Under the pieces are notes generated by a model, which saw only the letters and a program-made list of their open reading frames with translations, had not been told where the DNA came from and did not search any database. A DNA stretch of 64,000 bases, taken from positions 337,478 through 401,477 of the forward strand of contig NZ_BSFN01000003.1 of NCBI RefSeq assembly GCF_027922365.1, written 5' to 3'. Source of the DNA: Pseudomonas turukhanskensis (GTDB lineage: Bacteria > Pseudomonadota > Gammaproteobacteria > Pseudomonadales > Pseudomonadaceae). Below, piece after piece: positions 12,485-23,124 of this stretch; position 1 is the first letter of the stretch, and each line of letters begins with the position of its first letter. The translations under genes and the position numbers were made by a program.

Positions 12485-13498
12485 CTAAGCGAAACAGCGC
12501 TTGGCATCAAAAGGCTGTTTCTCCTTCAAAATGTGGTAACTCGCCCGCGCCAACTTGTGAGCCAGTGCTTTAGTGGCGACCACTGAATTGGTTTTGGCTT
12601 TTTTCTTTTCGAAAAAACGTTTGGCGTCATCGCTAAAGCGCCTAGCAAAATTAGCCGCTTCGATGAAGGCCCAAATAAGGTACGCGTTACCGTTCTTGGC
12701 GTTGCCTTCACCCTTCTTTTTGCCGTTCGAGCAATGCCCACTTTTCACGCATCGTGCATAGGACGCGAAATTGCCCACTTCGGCGAAACGCTCAATATTT
12801 CCCGTCTCCAACATAATGACCGTAGCCAGGACCTGACCAACTCCAGGCATAGTTTTCAACAGCGAATACTCTGGGCGCAAAGCGACCTCATGCAGCAGGC
12901 GATCTTCGATAACTTCAATCTGAACCTGTACTGCCTGAATAATGGCGACGTTGGCTTTCATCGCCAAAGCGATATCCGTTGGAAGGCCTAGCCTGTCAAC
13001 GGATGTCGCTGAAAGGGCTTTAACTGCGTTGCAACTCAATCGCCCACCCAGTTGACGCGCCAAAATGCTCTCAACGGCAAGAATGTGCTGTGTTCTGCTA
13101 CGTACCAATTGAATGCGCTTACGTGCCAAATCTCGCAATGCCCGCTCTTGTGGCGGATGGATATAGCCGGTTGGCAAAATCCCGAGCCGCAGCAGATGCG
13201 CCAAAAAGAACGCGTCATCCTTATCGTCAGCATGCTTCAAGCCGTCGTAGCGTTTAATCGCAACTGGGTTGGCTAGCCGGACCACATACCCTGCTGCCAT
13301 GAGCCCATCAACCAGCCAGTACCAGTTGTAAGTGGACTCAACTACCGCGCCCGCCAGCTCTGCACGATAGGGCTCCAGTACGTCGAGAATTTTCTTCAGG
13401 TCATTGGGGCAACGTCGGGAGACCAGGACCCGGTCTGTTTCGTCGATGACCACCACAACGCTATTGTTTGAATGCAGGTCTATGCCACAGAATTTCAT
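12485..13498 (-). CDS. IS110-family transposase
   Basis: A 337-residue DEDD-type recombinase. The N-terminal RuvC-like domain shows GIDLHSN (Asp7), VVESTYNWYWLVDGL (Glu) and KHADDKDDAFFLAHLLR (the two Asp), and the C-terminal transposase-20 domain shows LLKTMPGVGQVLATVIMLE and GNFASYARCV. The ATG at 13498 lies five bases after GAGGAGG and is preferred to the preceding GTG. Length and motifs look intact, so the element may be active. IS110 enzymes insert without inverted-repeat cleavage and use a guide RNA from the element end. It borders the ABC-3C island on its right. Confidence 0.9.
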   Translation of the reverse strand: MKFCGIDLHSNNSVVVVIDETDRVLVSRRCPNDLKKILDVLEPYRAELAGAVVESTYNWYWLVDGLMAAGYVVRLANPVAIKRYDGLKHADDKDDAFFLAHLLRLGILPTGYIHPPQERALRDLARKRIQLVRSRTQHILAVESILARQLGGRLSCNAVKALSATSVDRLGLPTDIALAMKANVAIIQAVQVQIEVIEDRLLHEVALRPEYSLLKTMPGVGQVLATVIMLETGNIERFAEVGNFASYARCVKSGHCSNGKKKGEGNAKNGNAYLIWAFIEAANFARRFSDDAKRFFEKKKAKTNSVVATKALAHKLARASYHILKEKQPFDAKRCFA

Positions 13499-13501
13499 CA
13501 C

Positions 13502-16708: not shown

Positions 16709-18208
16709 CTACTCAAAGCGCAAAAACTCTTCGCCTTTGGCCGCAACCATCTCGTCAAACACCGGCAGCCTGGCGACGAAGTGCTCGGCAAACGCCAGGT
16801 AGCGATCCTGCCCGGGCACGTAGTAGATCGGCGGTTTTTCCCTTGGAATATCCCGCGAGGTCAGCTTCAGCACCTGGTTGCTTCGCTGGTTCCACCACCA
16901 GGCCAAGGCCTGGGTGCCAAAGCTGTTGGTGTGGTAGTTCCACACCCACCAGTCGCCGTGGCCTTTGGAGACGTGCAGTTGGCCGTAGAAGGTGCGCAGG
17001 GTGATTTTGCGTTTGGGCTGGTTGGTAAATATCTGCGTCTCTTGGCGTACCTCGCTGCCCAAACTATCCAGCAGCGCTTTGCCGGTGGCGCCGGTTACCA
17101 GGTTGAAGCGCCAGGCCATGAGCACGTGTTCGTTGTAGGCGCTGTCTTCGAGGTTTTGCCGGTCGGTTTCGCTGAACAGCAGAATGTTGTCGTCGCCCAG
17201 GTAGGCGGTGGCCTCCACCAGCGTGCGCTCGTGGGTGGGCAAGGGGCGGGTGGGCGTGGTGTGGTGCGGCGTTTGCCGGTCCCATATCCAGCACTGCGGG
17301 GCGTTGTGCCGCATAAACAGCAGGCGGCCTGCGCCTATGGGCAGGATGTGCAGGTCATGGGCGTACTCGAAAATGACCTCGCTGCTGGTCGGGGTAATCC
17401 GCCAGATGCGGGTGACCTGCTCGGGCTCGTACAGGCGCTGGCGTTCGAAAATTTCCCCGTCCACCACTACCGCAGGGTCTTCGAATTCGGGCCAGTGTTC
17501 GCCGGCCGGGCCGAAGCGCTGCACGGTGTTGCCTTGGCGAATTTCATATTCGTAGCGGTCATCGCCGCTGCGTTCACCCCGAACCACCCGGCGCTTCCAC
17601 AGGCTGCCCTGCGGGCTGGCGTCGATAAGCTGAAGGTCGGCGGCATCGACCTCAGGTCGGTGTTCGAGCACGTCCTGTTCGGTGGGTGGCCAGGGGTTGA
17701 AGTCGATCAGAAAACACAGCCACTGATCCTCGTCCTGTTCGGTAATGGCCGCATAACCGTTGCGGTAGTTGTAAGCCTGTACATAGGTGGGCGCAGGGTA
17801 GTCGTGCACCTCCTGCAGCCAGTTGAGCTTGGCGGTTTTGCGTTTGGGTTTTGCCGGCGCGGCGGGTGCTTCGGGTTCGATGCGTACGGGGGTGAGCGCC
17901 AGGCCGCCGTGGGGCTTTTGCCAGTGCGCGGCAAACGCCTGGCGTTGGTCGCTGGGGATAAGGGTAGGGCGGTAATCATCGGCGCCGGCGTCGAGGTTCC
18001 ATAGGTCATAACCGTGCGTTATCAGCAGGGGCGCCAAGGCCTGAAAGCAGACCTCGGCCATTTCGTTGCTGAGCTCATCCAGCAACGCCTCGAACGGGGC
18101 CCCGGAGAAAATCGGAATGTCCGGGTAATAGTGCTGCAGCAATGCCAGCAACTCGCCGCCGGGTATTTTCCAATCGACATGCACCCGAGGTTCGAAATCC
18201 ATCTGCAT
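16709..18208 (-). CDS. Hypothetical protein, about 500 residues
   Basis: A 499-residue soluble protein without recognised domains. The first 90 residues are helical (LLALLQHYYPDIPIF, PFEALLDELSNEMAEV). A basic linker PAAPAKPKRKTAK follows, and the remainder is rich in Trp and Tyr with repeated strand blocks (e.g. YEYEIRQGNTVQRFGP, LFMRHNAPQCWIWDRQT) resembling a beta-propeller-like region. The ATG at 18208 has AAGGAAGG upstream and is preferred to the frame start at 18262. It is divergent from the ubiquitin-autotransporter gene with 127 bases between. A link to it is possible but unsupported. Confidence 0.7.
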   Translation of the reverse strand: MQMDFEPRVHVDWKIPGGELLALLQHYYPDIPIFSGAPFEALLDELSNEMAEVCFQALAPLLITHGYDLWNLDAGADDYRPTLIPSDQRQAFAAHWQKPHGGLALTPVRIEPEAPAAPAKPKRKTAKLNWLQEVHDYPAPTYVQAYNYRNGYAAITEQDEDQWLCFLIDFNPWPPTEQDVLEHRPEVDAADLQLIDASPQGSLWKRRVVRGERSGDDRYEYEIRQGNTVQRFGPAGEHWPEFEDPAVVVDGEIFERQRLYEPEQVTRIWRITPTSSEVIFEYAHDLHILPIGAGRLLFMRHNAPQCWIWDRQTPHHTTPTRPLPTHERTLVEATAYLGDDNILLFSETDRQNLEDSAYNEHVLMAWRFNLVTGATGKALLDSLGSEVRQETQIFTNQPKRKITLRTFYGQLHVSKGHGDWWVWNYHTNSFGTQALAWWWNQRSNQVLKLTSRDIPREKPPIYYVPGQDRYLAFAEHFVARLPVFDEMVAAKGEEFLRFE

Positions 18209-18335
18209 CGCGCGGCCTTCCTTTTGGCTGTGTGGGTGCCAGCTTAGCGGCTGGCGAGACACGATTCATCCCAGCATCGTGCTTATCTGAGTGATGTTAC
18301 TCTGCTACTATCGCCGGCTTTTTACCGTCTAGCTG

Positions 18336-19595
18336 GTGCCTTTCGTGATGTTGCCTACCGTTCGAGTCCCCCTTTTTGTTCGCGCCTTGTTGCTGGTAGT
18401 GGCCTGTGGCATAGCCACGCCGGCATTTGCCATGCAGATATTCGTCAAGACGCAAACCGGCAAAACCATCTCGCTGGAAGTGGAGCCCAGTGACTCGATC
18501 GAGAACGTCAAATCCAAGATTCAGGAAAAGGAAGGCATTGCGCCCGAGAAACAGAAGCTGATCTTTGCCGGCAAGTTGCTGGAGGACGGCCGCACGCTTT
18601 CGGACTACAACATCCAGAAAGAATCGACCCTTCACTTGGCGGCGGTGCAGGCCGTCGTGCAGCCGGCCGGGTTGGATGGCCTGGCCCGCCAGGCCAGTGG
18701 CTTGTCAAAACTCGCCGTGGATTCGGCAGTGTTGGTGCTGAGCGGCAACCATGGTCACCCCCTGGATTTTCGCGTGGCCGCTGGCAAGCAACAGTGCGCC
18801 TGGCTGGCCGGTGACTGGGGTGGCGATAACCTCGGCGGTGCCGACGGTTCGGTTGGCGTTGCCGAGGTGGGCGGTTGCCAGCGCCTGACGGAAAACGGCG
18901 CGCAGTTGGGCGCCGCCATCGGCAAGAGCCGTGTCCGTGATAACGCCGGCGCGGGCAATGAAATCACCCAGCGCGGCACTTACCTGCTGGTGGAATTCAT
19001 CGCGCCAGTCACGGCGCTGTCGCCTGATCTCTGGTCGACGCTGACCGCCTATTACAACCATGGCGATGCGGACGTGAGCCGCAGCTATTCAACGCTGTTG
19101 GGCAGCGAAGGCTCCAGCGCTTCGCCCGGCGTCGATACCGCCGCGCTGCGCACCCGTCTGGACTGGGAAGGCCTGTGGCGGCCCATGGGCGTGACGCTCT
19201 CGCCCTATGTCGACCTGAACTACGTGCAGACGCGCATTGGCTCCTATACCGAGTCCGGTGGCAGCCAGCCCATGTCGCTGGGTGAGCGCGATAGCAGCGT
19301 TTCCGAGCTGCGTGTGGGGGTCAATGGCAACTACCTGTTGGCCGATCACCTTCAACTGCTGGCGGGCGTTGAAGGCGTTCGCCGTGTTCATGATGATGCC
19401 GACCCAGTGGATGCCTATTGGCAGTCGCAGCATCTTCGACTGGCTGCCGAGCAAAGCGACCGCGCCTGGGTGCGCAGCCAGCTCGGCGCGGCGTGGTTGA
19501 TGCGCGATAGCCGCGTGATGGTGTTGCTCAATGCCACCAGTGAAGGCGAGCAGCCGGCACGCTGGGTGGCCGTGAGCTGGACCGGGTCGTTCTGA
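18336..19595 (+). CDS. Ubiquitin domain fused to an autotransporter-type beta-barrel
   Basis: A 419-residue exported protein. Residues 1-32 are a signal peptide ending PAFA. Residues 33-101 are ubiquitin, matching human ubiquitin at 59 of 69 positions; the differences are L8Q, T14S, T22S, A28S, D32E, P37A, D39E, Q40K, R42K and Q49L. All seven lysines and Ile44 are kept. The terminal V-L-R-L-R-G-G is replaced by AAVQAVV, so it cannot be activated by an E1. A short linker leads to about 270 residues of alternating strands typical of an autotransporter barrel ([26 protein letters not shown]), ending in Trp-Thr-Gly-Ser-Phe. The predicted result is ubiquitin held on or released from the outer membrane. 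GTG at 18336 gives the signal; ATG at 18348 is also possible. About three quarters of ubiquitin codons end in G or C, so the domain looks adapted to this genome. Confidence 0.9.
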
Positions 19596-19602
19596 TAGCG
19601 CG

Positions 19603-19670
19603 CATCGAGGCAAAAGCCTCTCCTACACCGAAACGCAGTCACCTGTAGGAGAGGCTTCAGCCTCGATGCT
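19603..19670. repeat. REP pair (inverted) between convergent genes
   Basis: Two 26-base arms, one starting GCATCGAGGC and the other ending GCCTCGATGC, each containing the AGGCTTC/TAGGAG core, form a nearly perfect hairpin. This is a Pseudomonas REP doublet. It lies between convergent genes and probably acts as a bidirectional terminator. Its right arm overlaps the last codons of the GNAT gene. Confidence 0.8.
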
Positions 19671-20183
19671 TTTGCCATCCTGGCCAATCGCAGCATGCCG
19701 ATCAGCCAAACGTTGAAGCGCACGATCATCCATCTGATACGCCCGCCATTTGCTGTCCGGCCTGCCGCCCAGGCGCTGATAAAACGCCTCGGCATTGTTA
19801 TTACCCGCCAGCACGTCCCACTTCAAACGCCCGGCATGGCGGGCCGTTCCCCATTGCGCCACCTTCTGCATCAAGGCCTTGCCCAGTCCCTCACCGCGAA
19901 AGGCCTCGGCGATATACAGCTCTTTCAATACCAGGGTGGGCCGCAGGTCGAAGGTAAACGGAATTTCCAGCAGCACGGCATAGCCGGCCAGTTTCCCGCA
20001 GCCCGCTGCAACGAACAGCTGGCACTGCGGGTTGTCGCCGAACGCACGGGCCATGAGCTCGCGCTCATCCAATCGAAATGCCTCGATATAGTCTTCAAAG
20101 ACGGCCAGTGCGCGCATCAGTTCAAGCAGCGCCGGTACGTCGGCCGGCAGGGCCGCACGCACCGTAAGGGGCTCACTCAACAT
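19623..20183 (-). CDS. GNAT family N-acetyltransferase
   Basis: A 186-residue acetyltransferase. The acetyl-CoA-binding motif A is present (LYIAEAFRGEGLGKALMQKV), preceded by an LVLKEL strand and followed by motif B (WDVLAGNNNAEAFYQRLGGR). Such sequences are close to the diamine/spermidine and small-molecule GNATs, but the substrate is not fixed. The last 16 or so residues after RLADRHAAIGQDGK are encoded by the REP element and are unlikely to matter. The start overlaps the rhodanese stop by seven bases, so the two genes are cotranscribed. Confidence 0.85.
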   Translation of the reverse strand: MLSEPLTVRAALPADVPALLELMRALAVFEDYIEAFRLDERELMARAFGDNPQCQLFVAAGCGKLAGYAVLLEIPFTFDLRPTLVLKELYIAEAFRGEGLGKALMQKVAQWGTARHAGRLKWDVLAGNNNAEAFYQRLGGRPDSKWRAYQMDDRALQRLADRHAAIGQDGKSIEAEASPTGDCVSV

Positions 20184-20711: not shown

Positions 20712-21695
20712 ATGCATACCGACCCCGGTTTGGTGGCCGTTCTGGCCTATGACGGTTTGTGCACATTCGAATTCGGCATTGCCGTGGAGATTTTTGGTCT
20801 GCCCCGGCCGGAATTCGATTTTCCCTGGTATCGCCACTGCATCGTCGCCGTGGACGAGGGGCCGATGCGCGCGCTGGGTGGCTTTCAGGTGCTGGCCGAT
20901 GCCGGCCTTGAGGCGCTGACGCAGGCGCGGACCATCATCGTGCCAGGCTGGCGCAATCGCGAAGAGGCGCCGCCCGCGCCGCTGCTGCAGGCGCTGCGGC
21001 TGGCCCACGAGCGCGGGGCGCGGCTGCTGTCGATCTGCTCGGGGGTGTTTGTGCTGGCTGCCGCCGGCTTGCTGGATGCAAAGCGCGCCACCACGCATTG
21101 GCGCTATACCGACGAACTCGCCGCACGGTTTCCCGCTGTGGAGGTGGACCCGGCGGTGCTTTATGTGGACAGCGGCCAGGTGATCACTTCGGCCGGCAGC
21201 GCCGCTGGCATCGATGCCTGCCTGCACCTGGTGGCGCGTGACTTTGGCGCCTATGTCGCCAATACCGTGGCGCGGCGGTTGGTGATGGCACCGCAGCGTT
21301 CGGGCGGGCAGGCACAGTTCATTCCAGCACCCGTGGCGCAGACCCCGCGAGACGACTTGTCCGCCGTGCTCGCCTGGGCGCAACAGCGGTTGAATGAGCC
21401 ACTGTCGGTGACGCAATTGGCGGCCAAGGCCTTGATGAGCGAGCGCACGTTTTTACGGCGCTTCAGCGAAGCGACCGGCATGACGCCCAAGCGTTGGCTG
21501 CAGCACGCACGCATGACCCAGGCGCGCGCGTTGCTGGAAAGCTCGCGCCTGAACAACGAACAGATCGCCGAACGTTGTGGCTTTGGCTCCGTGGAAAGTT
21601 TTCGTGTGGCGTTTCGCAAGTCGGTCGGCCTGGCGCCGTCGTTTTATCGCGAGCGCTTCGGGCAGGGCGAAGGATATTCTGTTGGCGCATTTTAA
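20712..21695 (+). CDS. ftrA: GlxA/FtrA-type transcriptional regulator
   Basis: A 327-residue regulator. The N-terminal half is a DJ-1/PfpI-like domain (VAVLAYDGLCTFEFGIAVE, LLSICSGVFVLAAAGLL) and the C-terminal 100 residues are an AraC-type pair of helix-turn-helix motifs (LSVTQLAAKALMSERTFLRR, NEQIAERCGFGSVESFRVAF). The order and motifs match FtrA. It is divergent from the rhodanese/GNAT operon and probably controls it. The stop codon lies inside the first of three operator-like repeats preceding the hip-like operon. Confidence 0.85.
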   Translation: MHTDPGLVAVLAYDGLCTFEFGIAVEIFGLPRPEFDFPWYRHCIVAVDEGPMRALGGFQVLADAGLEALTQARTIIVPGWRNREEAPPAPLLQALRLAHERGARLLSICSGVFVLAAAGLLDAKRATTHWRYTDELAARFPAVEVDPAVLYVDSGQVITSAGSAAGIDACLHLVARDFGAYVANTVARRLVMAPQRSGGQAQFIPAPVAQTPRDDLSAVLAWAQQRLNEPLSVTQLAAKALMSERTFLRRFSEATGMTPKRWLQHARMTQARALLESSRLNNEQIAERCGFGSVESFRVAFRKSVGLAPSFYRERFGQGEGYSVGAF

Positions 21696-21784
21696 TGCGC
21701 TAAAGCCTCGGGTTTTGAATTGTTTGGTGCATTATATTGCGCCATTCGCGCGCCAAGGCTATGCTTCGAAGCATTATAGTGCGC
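21687..21784 (+). promoter_or_regulatory. Three operator-like repeats at exact 42-bp spacing
   Basis: GCATTTTAATGCGC (21687-21700), GCATTATATTGCGC (21729-21742) and GCATTATAGTGCGC (21771-21784) share the pattern GCATTwTAnTGCGC and start exactly 42 bp apart. Forty-two bp is four helical turns, so a regulator bound to each would sit on one face of the DNA. The third ends two bases before the hipA start, well placed to block initiation. They are probably bound by the HipB-like product of the downstream gene. Confidence 0.6.
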
Positions 21785-21786
21785 TG

Positions 21787-23124
21787 ATGGCGGCTTCCAT
21801 CATGGCTAAAGAGCTAACCGTCCAGGTGTTCGCTGATGGCGTCTGGCAAGACGCCTATAGCCTGACATTTCAGGATCCGTTGAATCCCCATGAGGGAACC
21901 TGCATCACGGGTTACCTCACGCCGTTCTATGTCAACAATATCGAGCACGAGAACTCGTTTTTCGAGAGCTCCATAAGCGTTGTACATCGCCTGGACTTGA
22001 ACATCAGCCACTCGCAGGGCTATCCGGCCTTCCTGCTGGATATTATTCCCGCAGGCGCGGCATTTCGTTCGCTAAAGAAGCGCTTTGCGGCCCGCAAGCC
22101 TGAGGGCATCGCCCTTGATCTGTTCCTCCTTGAGCGCTGCACACCCTCGCCAATCGGCCACCTGCGGATCAAGCAATCGCTTCCTTATCTGGATGAAGGG
22201 GAGCCCATGGGCTTCACCCGCAAGGAGGTAGCTGAGCGCAATACCGATTTTCTCGAGTACGCCTACGAGCAAGGTGCAGCCATTGGCGGAGCGACGGGTG
22301 CAGGCGGTGAGGCACCTAAGCTGTTGCTGGCGGAAAACCACGACGGCCTGATGTTCGCCGAGGCTACGCTCGCGGTTGAGCAGACCAGGCGACACTGGTT
22401 TGTGAAATTCCCCAGAAACCGAGCGGCCGCTGTCGACAAGGACATCCTGAGAGCGGAGTACCACTATTACTGCGCGATCACCGAGATCGGGATGAACACC
22501 ATCTCGACTGATGGCCTTGAGCTGATCGATGACGGTAAACACAGACCCAGCTTGTGGATGCCCCGCTTTGACCGCGAGGTAACCGAGCAGGGCATTGTTC
22601 GTCACCCGGTTGAGTCGATTTACTCGTTATGTAATGTGACTGAGAACGGCGCATTCCTGGGCCATGAGTTCGTGCTTGGCCGTCTTGCTGAAATCTGGAC
22701 GATGGCGGGGCAAGCGGATGAGTTGTTCGACTTGATCGTCGAGTACATCGCCAGAGATCTACTGAACCGCATCCTGGGCAACTCGGATAATCACGGGCGA
22801 AACATGTCGATCCTTCGCGGCGCAGGCAAGCTGAAGCTAGCCCCTGTCTACGACCTGGCTCCCATGGTGCTCGACCCTGACGGCATTTCCAGGGTGTTGA
22901 AGTGGGACCATGAAAGGGCCGGCGCACCGAACTGGAGGCAGGCCTGCCAGGCCATGGCGCACGGTGCATCCGCTGATGTGTATTTCGATGCGCTGCGCGA
23001 GCAGGCTCAGCGCATGCGTGCTCTGCCGGATCTGTTGGCTAACCTGCCGGAGCGTGTCCGCAATGCGCAAAGCATTCCGCTCAATAACCTCGATACGCGC
23101 CTGAAGGAATGGGGGTTGATATGA
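21787..23124 (+). CDS. HipA-like serine/threonine kinase (toxin)
   Basis: A 445-residue HipA-family kinase. A Gly-rich ATP loop GGATGAGGEAPK (residues 167-178) is followed by the catalytic block NSDNHGRN (residues 332-339, Asp334) and YDLAP (Asp356, the metal-binding Asp). E. coli HipA phosphorylates glutamyl-tRNA synthetase and causes growth arrest; this protein keeps the key residues, so it is probably an active toxin. The ATG at 21787 is preferred over the upstream frame, which overlaps ftrA. It overlaps the next gene as ATGA. Toxin comes before the helix-turn-helix gene, the reverse of E. coli hipBA. Confidence 0.88.
   Translation: MAASIMAKELTVQVFADGVWQDAYSLTFQDPLNPHEGTCITGYLTPFYVNNIEHENSFFESSISVVHRLDLNISHSQGYPAFLLDIIPAGAAFRSLKKRFAARKPEGIALDLFLLERCTPSPIGHLRIKQSLPYLDEGEPMGFTRKEVAERNTDFLEYAYEQGAAIGGATGAGGEAPKLLLAENHDGLMFAEATLAVEQTRRHWFVKFPRNRAAAVDKDILRAEYHYYCAITEIGMNTISTDGLELIDDGKHRPSLWMPRFDREVTEQGIVRHPVESIYSLCNVTENGAFLGHEFVLGRLAEIWTMAGQADELFDLIVEYIARDLLNRILGNSDNHGRNMSILRGAGKLKLAPVYDLAPMVLDPDGISRVLKWDHERAGAPNWRQACQAMAHGASADVYFDALREQAQRMRALPDLLANLPERVRNAQSIPLNNLDTRLKEWGLI

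Follow-up and report, generated by a model that had tools for sequence, protein, structure and literature searches.

A bacterial fusion of tail-less ubiquitin to an autotransporter barrel, and a wider class of predicted exported ubiquitin heads

Ubiquitin is the textbook eukaryotic modifier. What, then, would a bacterium do with a near-canonical ubiquitin fused in frame to an outer-membrane barrel? The question is raised by a gene in a 64,000-nucleotide stretch of the Pseudomonas turukhanskensis genome (assembly GCF_027922365.1, contig NZ_BSFN01000003.1, positions 337,478 to 401,477), which we call the window. The gene spans 18336 to 19595 on the + strand as a single open frame (419 codons and a stop), and a preliminary description of the DNA had read it as a signal peptide, a ubiquitin, and a β-barrel. 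We suggest, with a probability of roughly 0.55, that the protein displays a tail-less ubiquitin at the cell surface, where this would serve as a fixed ligand that binds proteins, and that its role is in cell contact, more likely with neighbouring bacteria than with the eukaryotic ubiquitin machinery.

The architecture is far beyond chance, and the three-part layout was confirmed (Table 1). The protein matched PF00240 (E = 1.1e-27) and, over residues 161 to 390, the autotransporter beta-domain PF03797 (E = 1.9e-15). A recount against human ubiquitin gave the same 59 identities in 69 residues that had been described, and the window protein has both the fold and the sequence of ubiquitin. However, the ubiquitin part breaks off at ubiquitin residue 69-70, and the LRLRGG tail is absent. 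In the AlphaFold2 (AF2) model, the barrel is an autotransporter translocator with the 12 strands of type Va and not another fold. The predicted linker helix and the barrel aligned jointly to EstA from residue 108 and to EspP from residue 107, a comparison made with the predicted model rather than a solved structure. The last residue is Phe, as the preliminary description had stated.

The fusion recurs in related genomes, which that description had named as a possible support. A search with the full-length protein matched mostly eukaryotic polyubiquitins, and recurrence was assessed with the barrel only. This search returned 34 database proteins. The best 28 (46 to 100% identity, the window's own included) all contain ubiquitin and barrel, which places the same junction in 27 further proteins; the remaining 6 have no ubiquitin. 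The pairing already shows in automatic labels ("ubiquitin/uncharacterized protein YhjY with autotransporter beta-barrel domain"), and the member from Pseudomonas sp. PDM14 is labelled "ubiquitin-like protein." In the genus, 5 of 398 sampled genomes carry the fusion, the window's own included. Among these five, the ratio of nonsynonymous to synonymous substitution (dN/dS) was 0.04 to 0.21 for the ubiquitin part (8 of 10 pairs; 2 were saturated at synonymous sites) and 0.06 to 0.17 for the barrel part (9 of 10 pairs; 1 was saturated). Therefore, both halves are under selection. The copy in genome G325 (L005) has a barrel shortened in frame, with 338 codons from stop to stop, and is likely decaying. 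For the alignment (A1), we kept 25 of the 28 fusions, omitting P0102, P0103, and P0105 as near copies of P0100; P0001 represents P0047.

We then asked how the ubiquitin begins. A signal peptide was called by a rule, namely a hydrophobic stretch with small residues at -1 and -3 directly before ubiquitin Met1. All 25 aligned fusions passed, and by this rule they have the Sec signal of type Va autotransporters. Internal Met codons in other frames of the same DNA served as a control, and 38 of 1584 passed a slightly stricter form of the rule that also required a start codon. Stand-alone ubiquitin genes of the genus did not pass (0 of 7; loci L011 to L017 of the ten in L011 to L020). The mature fusion protein would therefore likely start at ubiquitin Met1. 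An alternative in-frame ATG at 18348 is the start position of several homologues. A scan of species genomes with the ubiquitin head confirmed at least 215 stretches, of which the best 80 (L031 to L110) were kept, and in 69 of these 80 a rule-based signal peptide ends immediately before ubiquitin Met1. Among the 11 failures, L052, L061, L073, and L105 apparently have a signal peptide and a longer spacer to Met1; the other 7 have no signal peptide or carry ubiquitin internal to the frame.

The other end of the domain bears on how such a ubiquitin could act. Cleavage by deubiquitinases needs the C-terminal Gly-Gly (GG). Activation and transfer by E1 and E2 need it likewise, as the available text of PMC3352274 states. 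The GG is missing in 25 of 25 window-type fusions, and LRLRGG is retained in none of them. Among 78 other heads from the best 80, LRLR is retained in 18 and LRLRGG in 5; these 78 include loci without a signal peptide, L089 is not counted among them because it is window-type, and L086, which ends at a contig edge, was left out of these counts and of the alignment of heads (A3). Because the RGG tail is missing, conjugation to targets or release by deubiquitinases is unlikely, to judge from sequence, and the processing by host enzymes that the preliminary description had entertained is unlikely for the same reason. Tail-less ubiquitins would most likely act through binding. The E2 profile PF00179 had no match in the window's genome, and 14 control genomes were equally silent.

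Conservation may point to a binding face that is not the usual one. We take positions 8, 44, 68, and 70 as the I44 patch, the usual docking patch; this patch, the F4 patch, and the core positions follow general definitions. In the window-type fusions, conservation was 0.95 in the core, 0.95 at the lysines, and 0.96 at positions 2, 4, and 12. Positions 8, 44, 68, and 70 averaged 0.61, with position 68 itself invariant. Residues 8, 44, and 70 are all hydrophobic in 11 of 25 window-type fusions versus 70 of 78 others. Invariant positions in the 25 fusions include 2, 4, 10, 62 to 64, and 68, which we presume to be surface-exposed in ubiquitin. Our reading is that the ubiquitin of the window's clade would be a retained ligand with a docking face other than the common one.

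These features suggest the following route. As the sequence implies, the fusion protein would be exported by the Sec pathway and would lose its signal peptide to signal peptidase just ahead of ubiquitin Met1. The model and homology predict that the C-terminal barrel inserts through the β-barrel assembly machinery (BAM) and that the helix at residues 110 to 135 threads the barrel pore. The ubiquitin would then refold outside and remain tethered in the manner of the EstA passenger, working by binding and not by conjugation. Outer-membrane surface display is the best-supported step of this mechanism, as a prediction. Since the ubiquitin fold is retained, available anti-ubiquitin reagents will likely recognize it, and display is therefore directly testable.

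Table 1. Positions in the window of the fusion gene, its parts, and a nearby hairpin
Feature	Position	Strand	Basis
Whole fusion gene (ubiquitin and autotransporter), 419 aa; starts with GTG, stop 19593-19595	18336..19595	+	Translation; PF00240 and PF03797
Signal peptide (predicted), residues 1-32, likely cut AFA^M	18336..18431	+	Hydrophobic stretch, then M33 preceded by small residues (-1 and -3)
Ubiquitin domain lacking LRLRGG, residues 33-101 (ubiquitin 1-69)	18432..18638	+	
Linker helix (predicted), residues 110-135, pore-filling kind	18663..18740	+	AF2 helix; EstA/EspP alignment
Translocator barrel of type Va autotransporters, residues 153-419, C-terminal Phe	18792..19592	+	12 main strands, counted by eye
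Terminator-like hairpin, weak, downstream of gene	19651..19664	+	2 in region versus 1.2 expected by chance

The closest known counterpart is BfUbb of Bacteroides fragilis, the only exported bacterial ubiquitin that we found in the open-licence literature. In the available text of PMC3352274 and PMC5705921, its signal peptide is cut exactly before Met1 and it has no C-terminal GG. It is reported there to inhibit 13 of 40 B. fragilis strains, bovine ubiquitin being inactive against the strains tested (PMC5705921), and to bind human E1 and inhibit ubiquitination in vitro (PMC3352274). A later BfUbb paper (Nat. Microbiol. 10.1038/s41564-023-01541-5) is cited in the accessible part of PMC12853789. 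As far as these texts go, BfUbb and the window protein are alike in a near-canonical ubiquitin, a signal peptide ending at Met1, the lack of GG, and occurrence in only some strains. However, BfUbb has 76 residues and is free, lacking an anchor, whereas the window ubiquitin is fused in frame to an outer-membrane barrel, and antagonism has been demonstrated for BfUbb only. On the barrel side, the window protein differs from EstA-type (type Va) Pseudomonas autotransporters in its passenger, which is about 70 residues of ubiquitin. The EstA passenger is an esterase. The nearest ubiquitin-free barrels (P0142 to P0146 and L006 to L010; 27 to 34% identity) also have other passengers, and the long repeats in P0143, P0145, P0146, L007, L009, and L010 presumably resemble HAF repeats.

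The best 80 loci of the scan suggest that the wider family is built alike, with the bacterium's own surface anchors bearing an exported ubiquitin head. The 69 heads with a signal peptide come from 11 bacterial phyla and one archaeal metagenome bin. Judged from record titles, 16 of the best 80 loci are from isolates, including Paracidovorax valerianellae, Pseudovibrio denitrificans, Ruminococcus albus 8, Rhodopirellula maiorica, and Saccharibacillus species, and 16 of 16 pass the signal-peptide rule. These heads are like that of the window in having an N-terminal ubiquitin, mostly without GG, but differ in what follows. A domain scan of 80 proteins (the window's and 79 loci) found the autotransporter barrel in 14, S-layer homology (SLH) domains in 6, dockerin in 6, IPTL-CTERM in 4, and a type IX secretion system (T9SS) tail in 2. 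Many other ubiquitin-headed proteins had no such anchor among the matches listed, and some continue in sequence without a Pfam name. Ten of ten proteins chosen for autotransporter-like looks contain ubiquitin and PF03797. The shared part of the class would thus be the predicted exported head, with variable downstream modules. B. fragilis, which the preliminary description had given as the known case of a close bacterial copy, is hardly alone, given at least 215 confirmed stretches.

Several single loci stand out. L038 (800 to 5278), from a Methanothrix metagenome bin, encodes a predicted surface protein of 1,493 residues with a ubiquitin head and SdrD-like B repeats; it is possibly a misbinned bacterial contig. 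L047 (4905 to 5228), from Dyella sp. OK004, has a predicted signal peptide and a complete ubiquitin ending in RLRGG and then a stop. This bacterial gene encodes a ubiquitin that is likely secreted and whose tail is intact; L121, from a viral contig, has the same layout. Within the window's genus, L011 (G245:C1:1458841-1459077), whose GC content is 0.48 versus 0.64 for the locus, encodes ubiquitin alone, with LRLRGG complete and no signal peptide. L012 to L019, in other genomes of the genus, hold several diverged or broken tail-less copies without a signal peptide.

What speaks against display as a ligand should be set beside this evidence. Surface exposure and any partner are predicted or inferred. 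Ubiquitin folds fast and stably, and if it did so in the periplasm, it could obstruct the pore that it has to pass. BfUbb acts as a free, secreted protein, and the window ubiquitin is tethered. The I44-versus-F4 contrast, made with general definitions of the patches, may be drift. Type Va autotransporters end in an aromatic residue that serves BAM, and ten of the 25 fusions lack the terminal Phe (Leu in 7, Ile in 2, and Val in 1; among these ten, P0136 diverges at its C-terminal end), Phe being present in 15, the window's included. A scan of 18150 to 19750 found no sigma-70-like promoter. For the wider class, the scan query (A2) began with Ala before Met1, and its ranking slightly favours heads with Ala there; short metagenome contigs account for some of the best 80 loci, and part of the at least 215 stretches could be contaminant contigs. 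In a ubiquitin tree, the window-type heads are scattered over more than one group (7 label changes). The head is also rare per genome, the part of the preliminary description's remark on close copies that stood: searched with the head alone at E ≤ 1e-8 (the whole fusion had matched mostly barrels), it was found in the window's own genome only of 398 sampled in the phylum (0 of 397 others).

Two other roles for a displayed ubiquitin have to be weighed. It might be aimed at eukaryotes, passing for extracellular or vacuolar ubiquitin when it meets a protist predator or a plant or animal host and there binding receptors or blocking enzymes, with the missing GG preventing removal by deubiquitinases. 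The near-canonical sequence under purifying selection and the mostly intact I44 patch of the other heads (70 of 78) fit such a target, as does the action of BfUbb on human E1 and ubiquitination in vitro in the available text of PMC3352274. However, the same patch is eroded in the window's clade. The window's strain is not known to have a host, and we regard this target as possible but rather unlikely. Bacterial contact is favoured because this clade conserves the F4 face but not the I44 docking patch, and because the one exported ubiquitin that has been tested, BfUbb, inhibits bacterial strains. Less likely still is that ubiquitin is a structural cap, a small stable fold that protects the exposed N terminus or blocks back-sliding of the passenger without a specific partner. 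The highly conserved core beside several variable surface positions would suit a cap, as would the many unrelated modules that bear the head, but a cap has no obvious need for the exposed invariant positions listed above, nor for the same protein in 11 phyla.

The remaining alternatives question display itself. We consider it improbable that ubiquitin remains periplasmic, acting as a folded plug or binding domain of the barrel. Its fast folding could stall it before translocation, and the linker to the predicted helix is short; yet that helix aligns to the helix-containing translocators of EstA and EspP, and SLH-bearing relatives from Saccharibacillus and Cohnella, genera that lack an outer membrane, would place the head outside. 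An assembly chimera or eukaryotic contamination was rejected for the window and has a negligible chance of being right. A few of the best 80 loci elsewhere may be eukaryotic. The window gene, by contrast, is a single copy on a contig of 506,449 bases in a 5.88-Mb genome with a listed completeness of 99.99% and contamination of 0%, GC content at third codon positions (GC3) is 0.77 in both the ubiquitin and the barrel parts, and the same junction occurs in independent genomes, in 27 further proteins and in synteny in G166 and G187. The preliminary description had likewise seen no obvious recent contaminant.

How often ubiquitin joined a barrel was addressed with a tree of 44 barrels, with rows trimmed to the last 288 to 300 residues; long branches leave its deep joins unsure. 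The window-type fusions join L099 of the Akkermansiaceae, another phylum (support 90/78), beside ubiquitin-free autotransporters. Ubiquitin barrels of Methylotenera, Neptunomonas, and Opitutae, a Pseudorhodobacter-Loktanella pair, and four further lineages, single or twin, lie on other branches. The ubiquitin label needs three changes on this tree, and at least two are forced by well-supported branches. Therefore, there were probably several independent ubiquitin-barrel fusions; one gain plus losses may be the alternative history. The ubiquitin tree has 70 columns, with 83 of 130 inner branches open, and is too short to be used for dating or counting transfers.

It seems to us evenly balanced whether ubiquitin is a general bacterial surface module, that is, an exported and mostly tail-less head in at least 11 phyla, joined more than once independently to the available anchors (autotransporter barrels, S-layer domains, dockerins, exosortase and T9SS tails) and serving a conjugation-free extracellular biology. 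If this is true, bacteria have repeatedly used the ubiquitin fold outside the cell without conjugation. It raises the questions of what the binding partners are, whether the head is a weapon against bacteria or protists, and whether it meets eukaryotic ubiquitin receptors. The separate parts are of known kinds; the combination and its breadth are new. Among the matches listed in the open-licence literature (titles and starts of abstracts), we found neither a ubiquitin autotransporter nor the wider ubiquitin-headed surface class, and the available portion of PMC11354881 holds no bacterial ubiquitin autotransporter.

The gene appears to have moved on its own. We compared 20 neighbouring open reading frames of the window (8 to 30 kb, some overlapping and not all real genes) by tblastn with the 15.5-kb regions surrounding the fusion in G092, G166, G187, and G325, and none matched. 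Nucleotide similarity to G092 runs from 18316 to 19595, that is, from 20 bases 5' of the GTG to the stop codon, and excludes the neighbours. Solo movement is drawn from these two results. An operon or immunity partner was rejected, as no neighbouring frame recurs beside the fusion in those four genomes. In an empty-site comparison, the downstream acetyltransferase gene (E ≤ 1e-40) was found in the window's own genome only, of 57. G166 and G187 share the surroundings of the fusion at about 80% nucleotide identity, and descent there therefore looks vertical.

Mobile elements gave further relatives of the head. Phage cargo was rejected, with no match in 50,697 phage records. Ten viral-contig loci encode ubiquitin relatives, some resembling bacterial genes and others viral or eukaryotic-type ubiquitins, and this mixture therefore gives no phage link to the window gene. 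L117, L119, and L120 (IMG/VR, filed as viral) are near-identical genes for a signal peptide and ubiquitin with, by eye, an IPTL-CTERM-like end. L122 and L123 have at least two diverged ubiquitin repeats with RGG joints, unlike the exported heads. Of 20 matching plasmid records, none was covered across more than 80% of the query; 17 matched the barrel part only, and 3 held ubiquitin heads (Ruminococcus albus 7 and two Pseudoalteromonas). The R. albus 7 head (NC_014824.1, 388216 to 388506) is annotated "ubiquitin family protein" and is 65% identical to residues 4 to 101 of the window protein, signal-peptide part included. In the window, an IS110-type transposase gene (12485 to 13501) and a HipA-like kinase gene (21577 to 23124) flank the fusion at about 5 and 2 kb.
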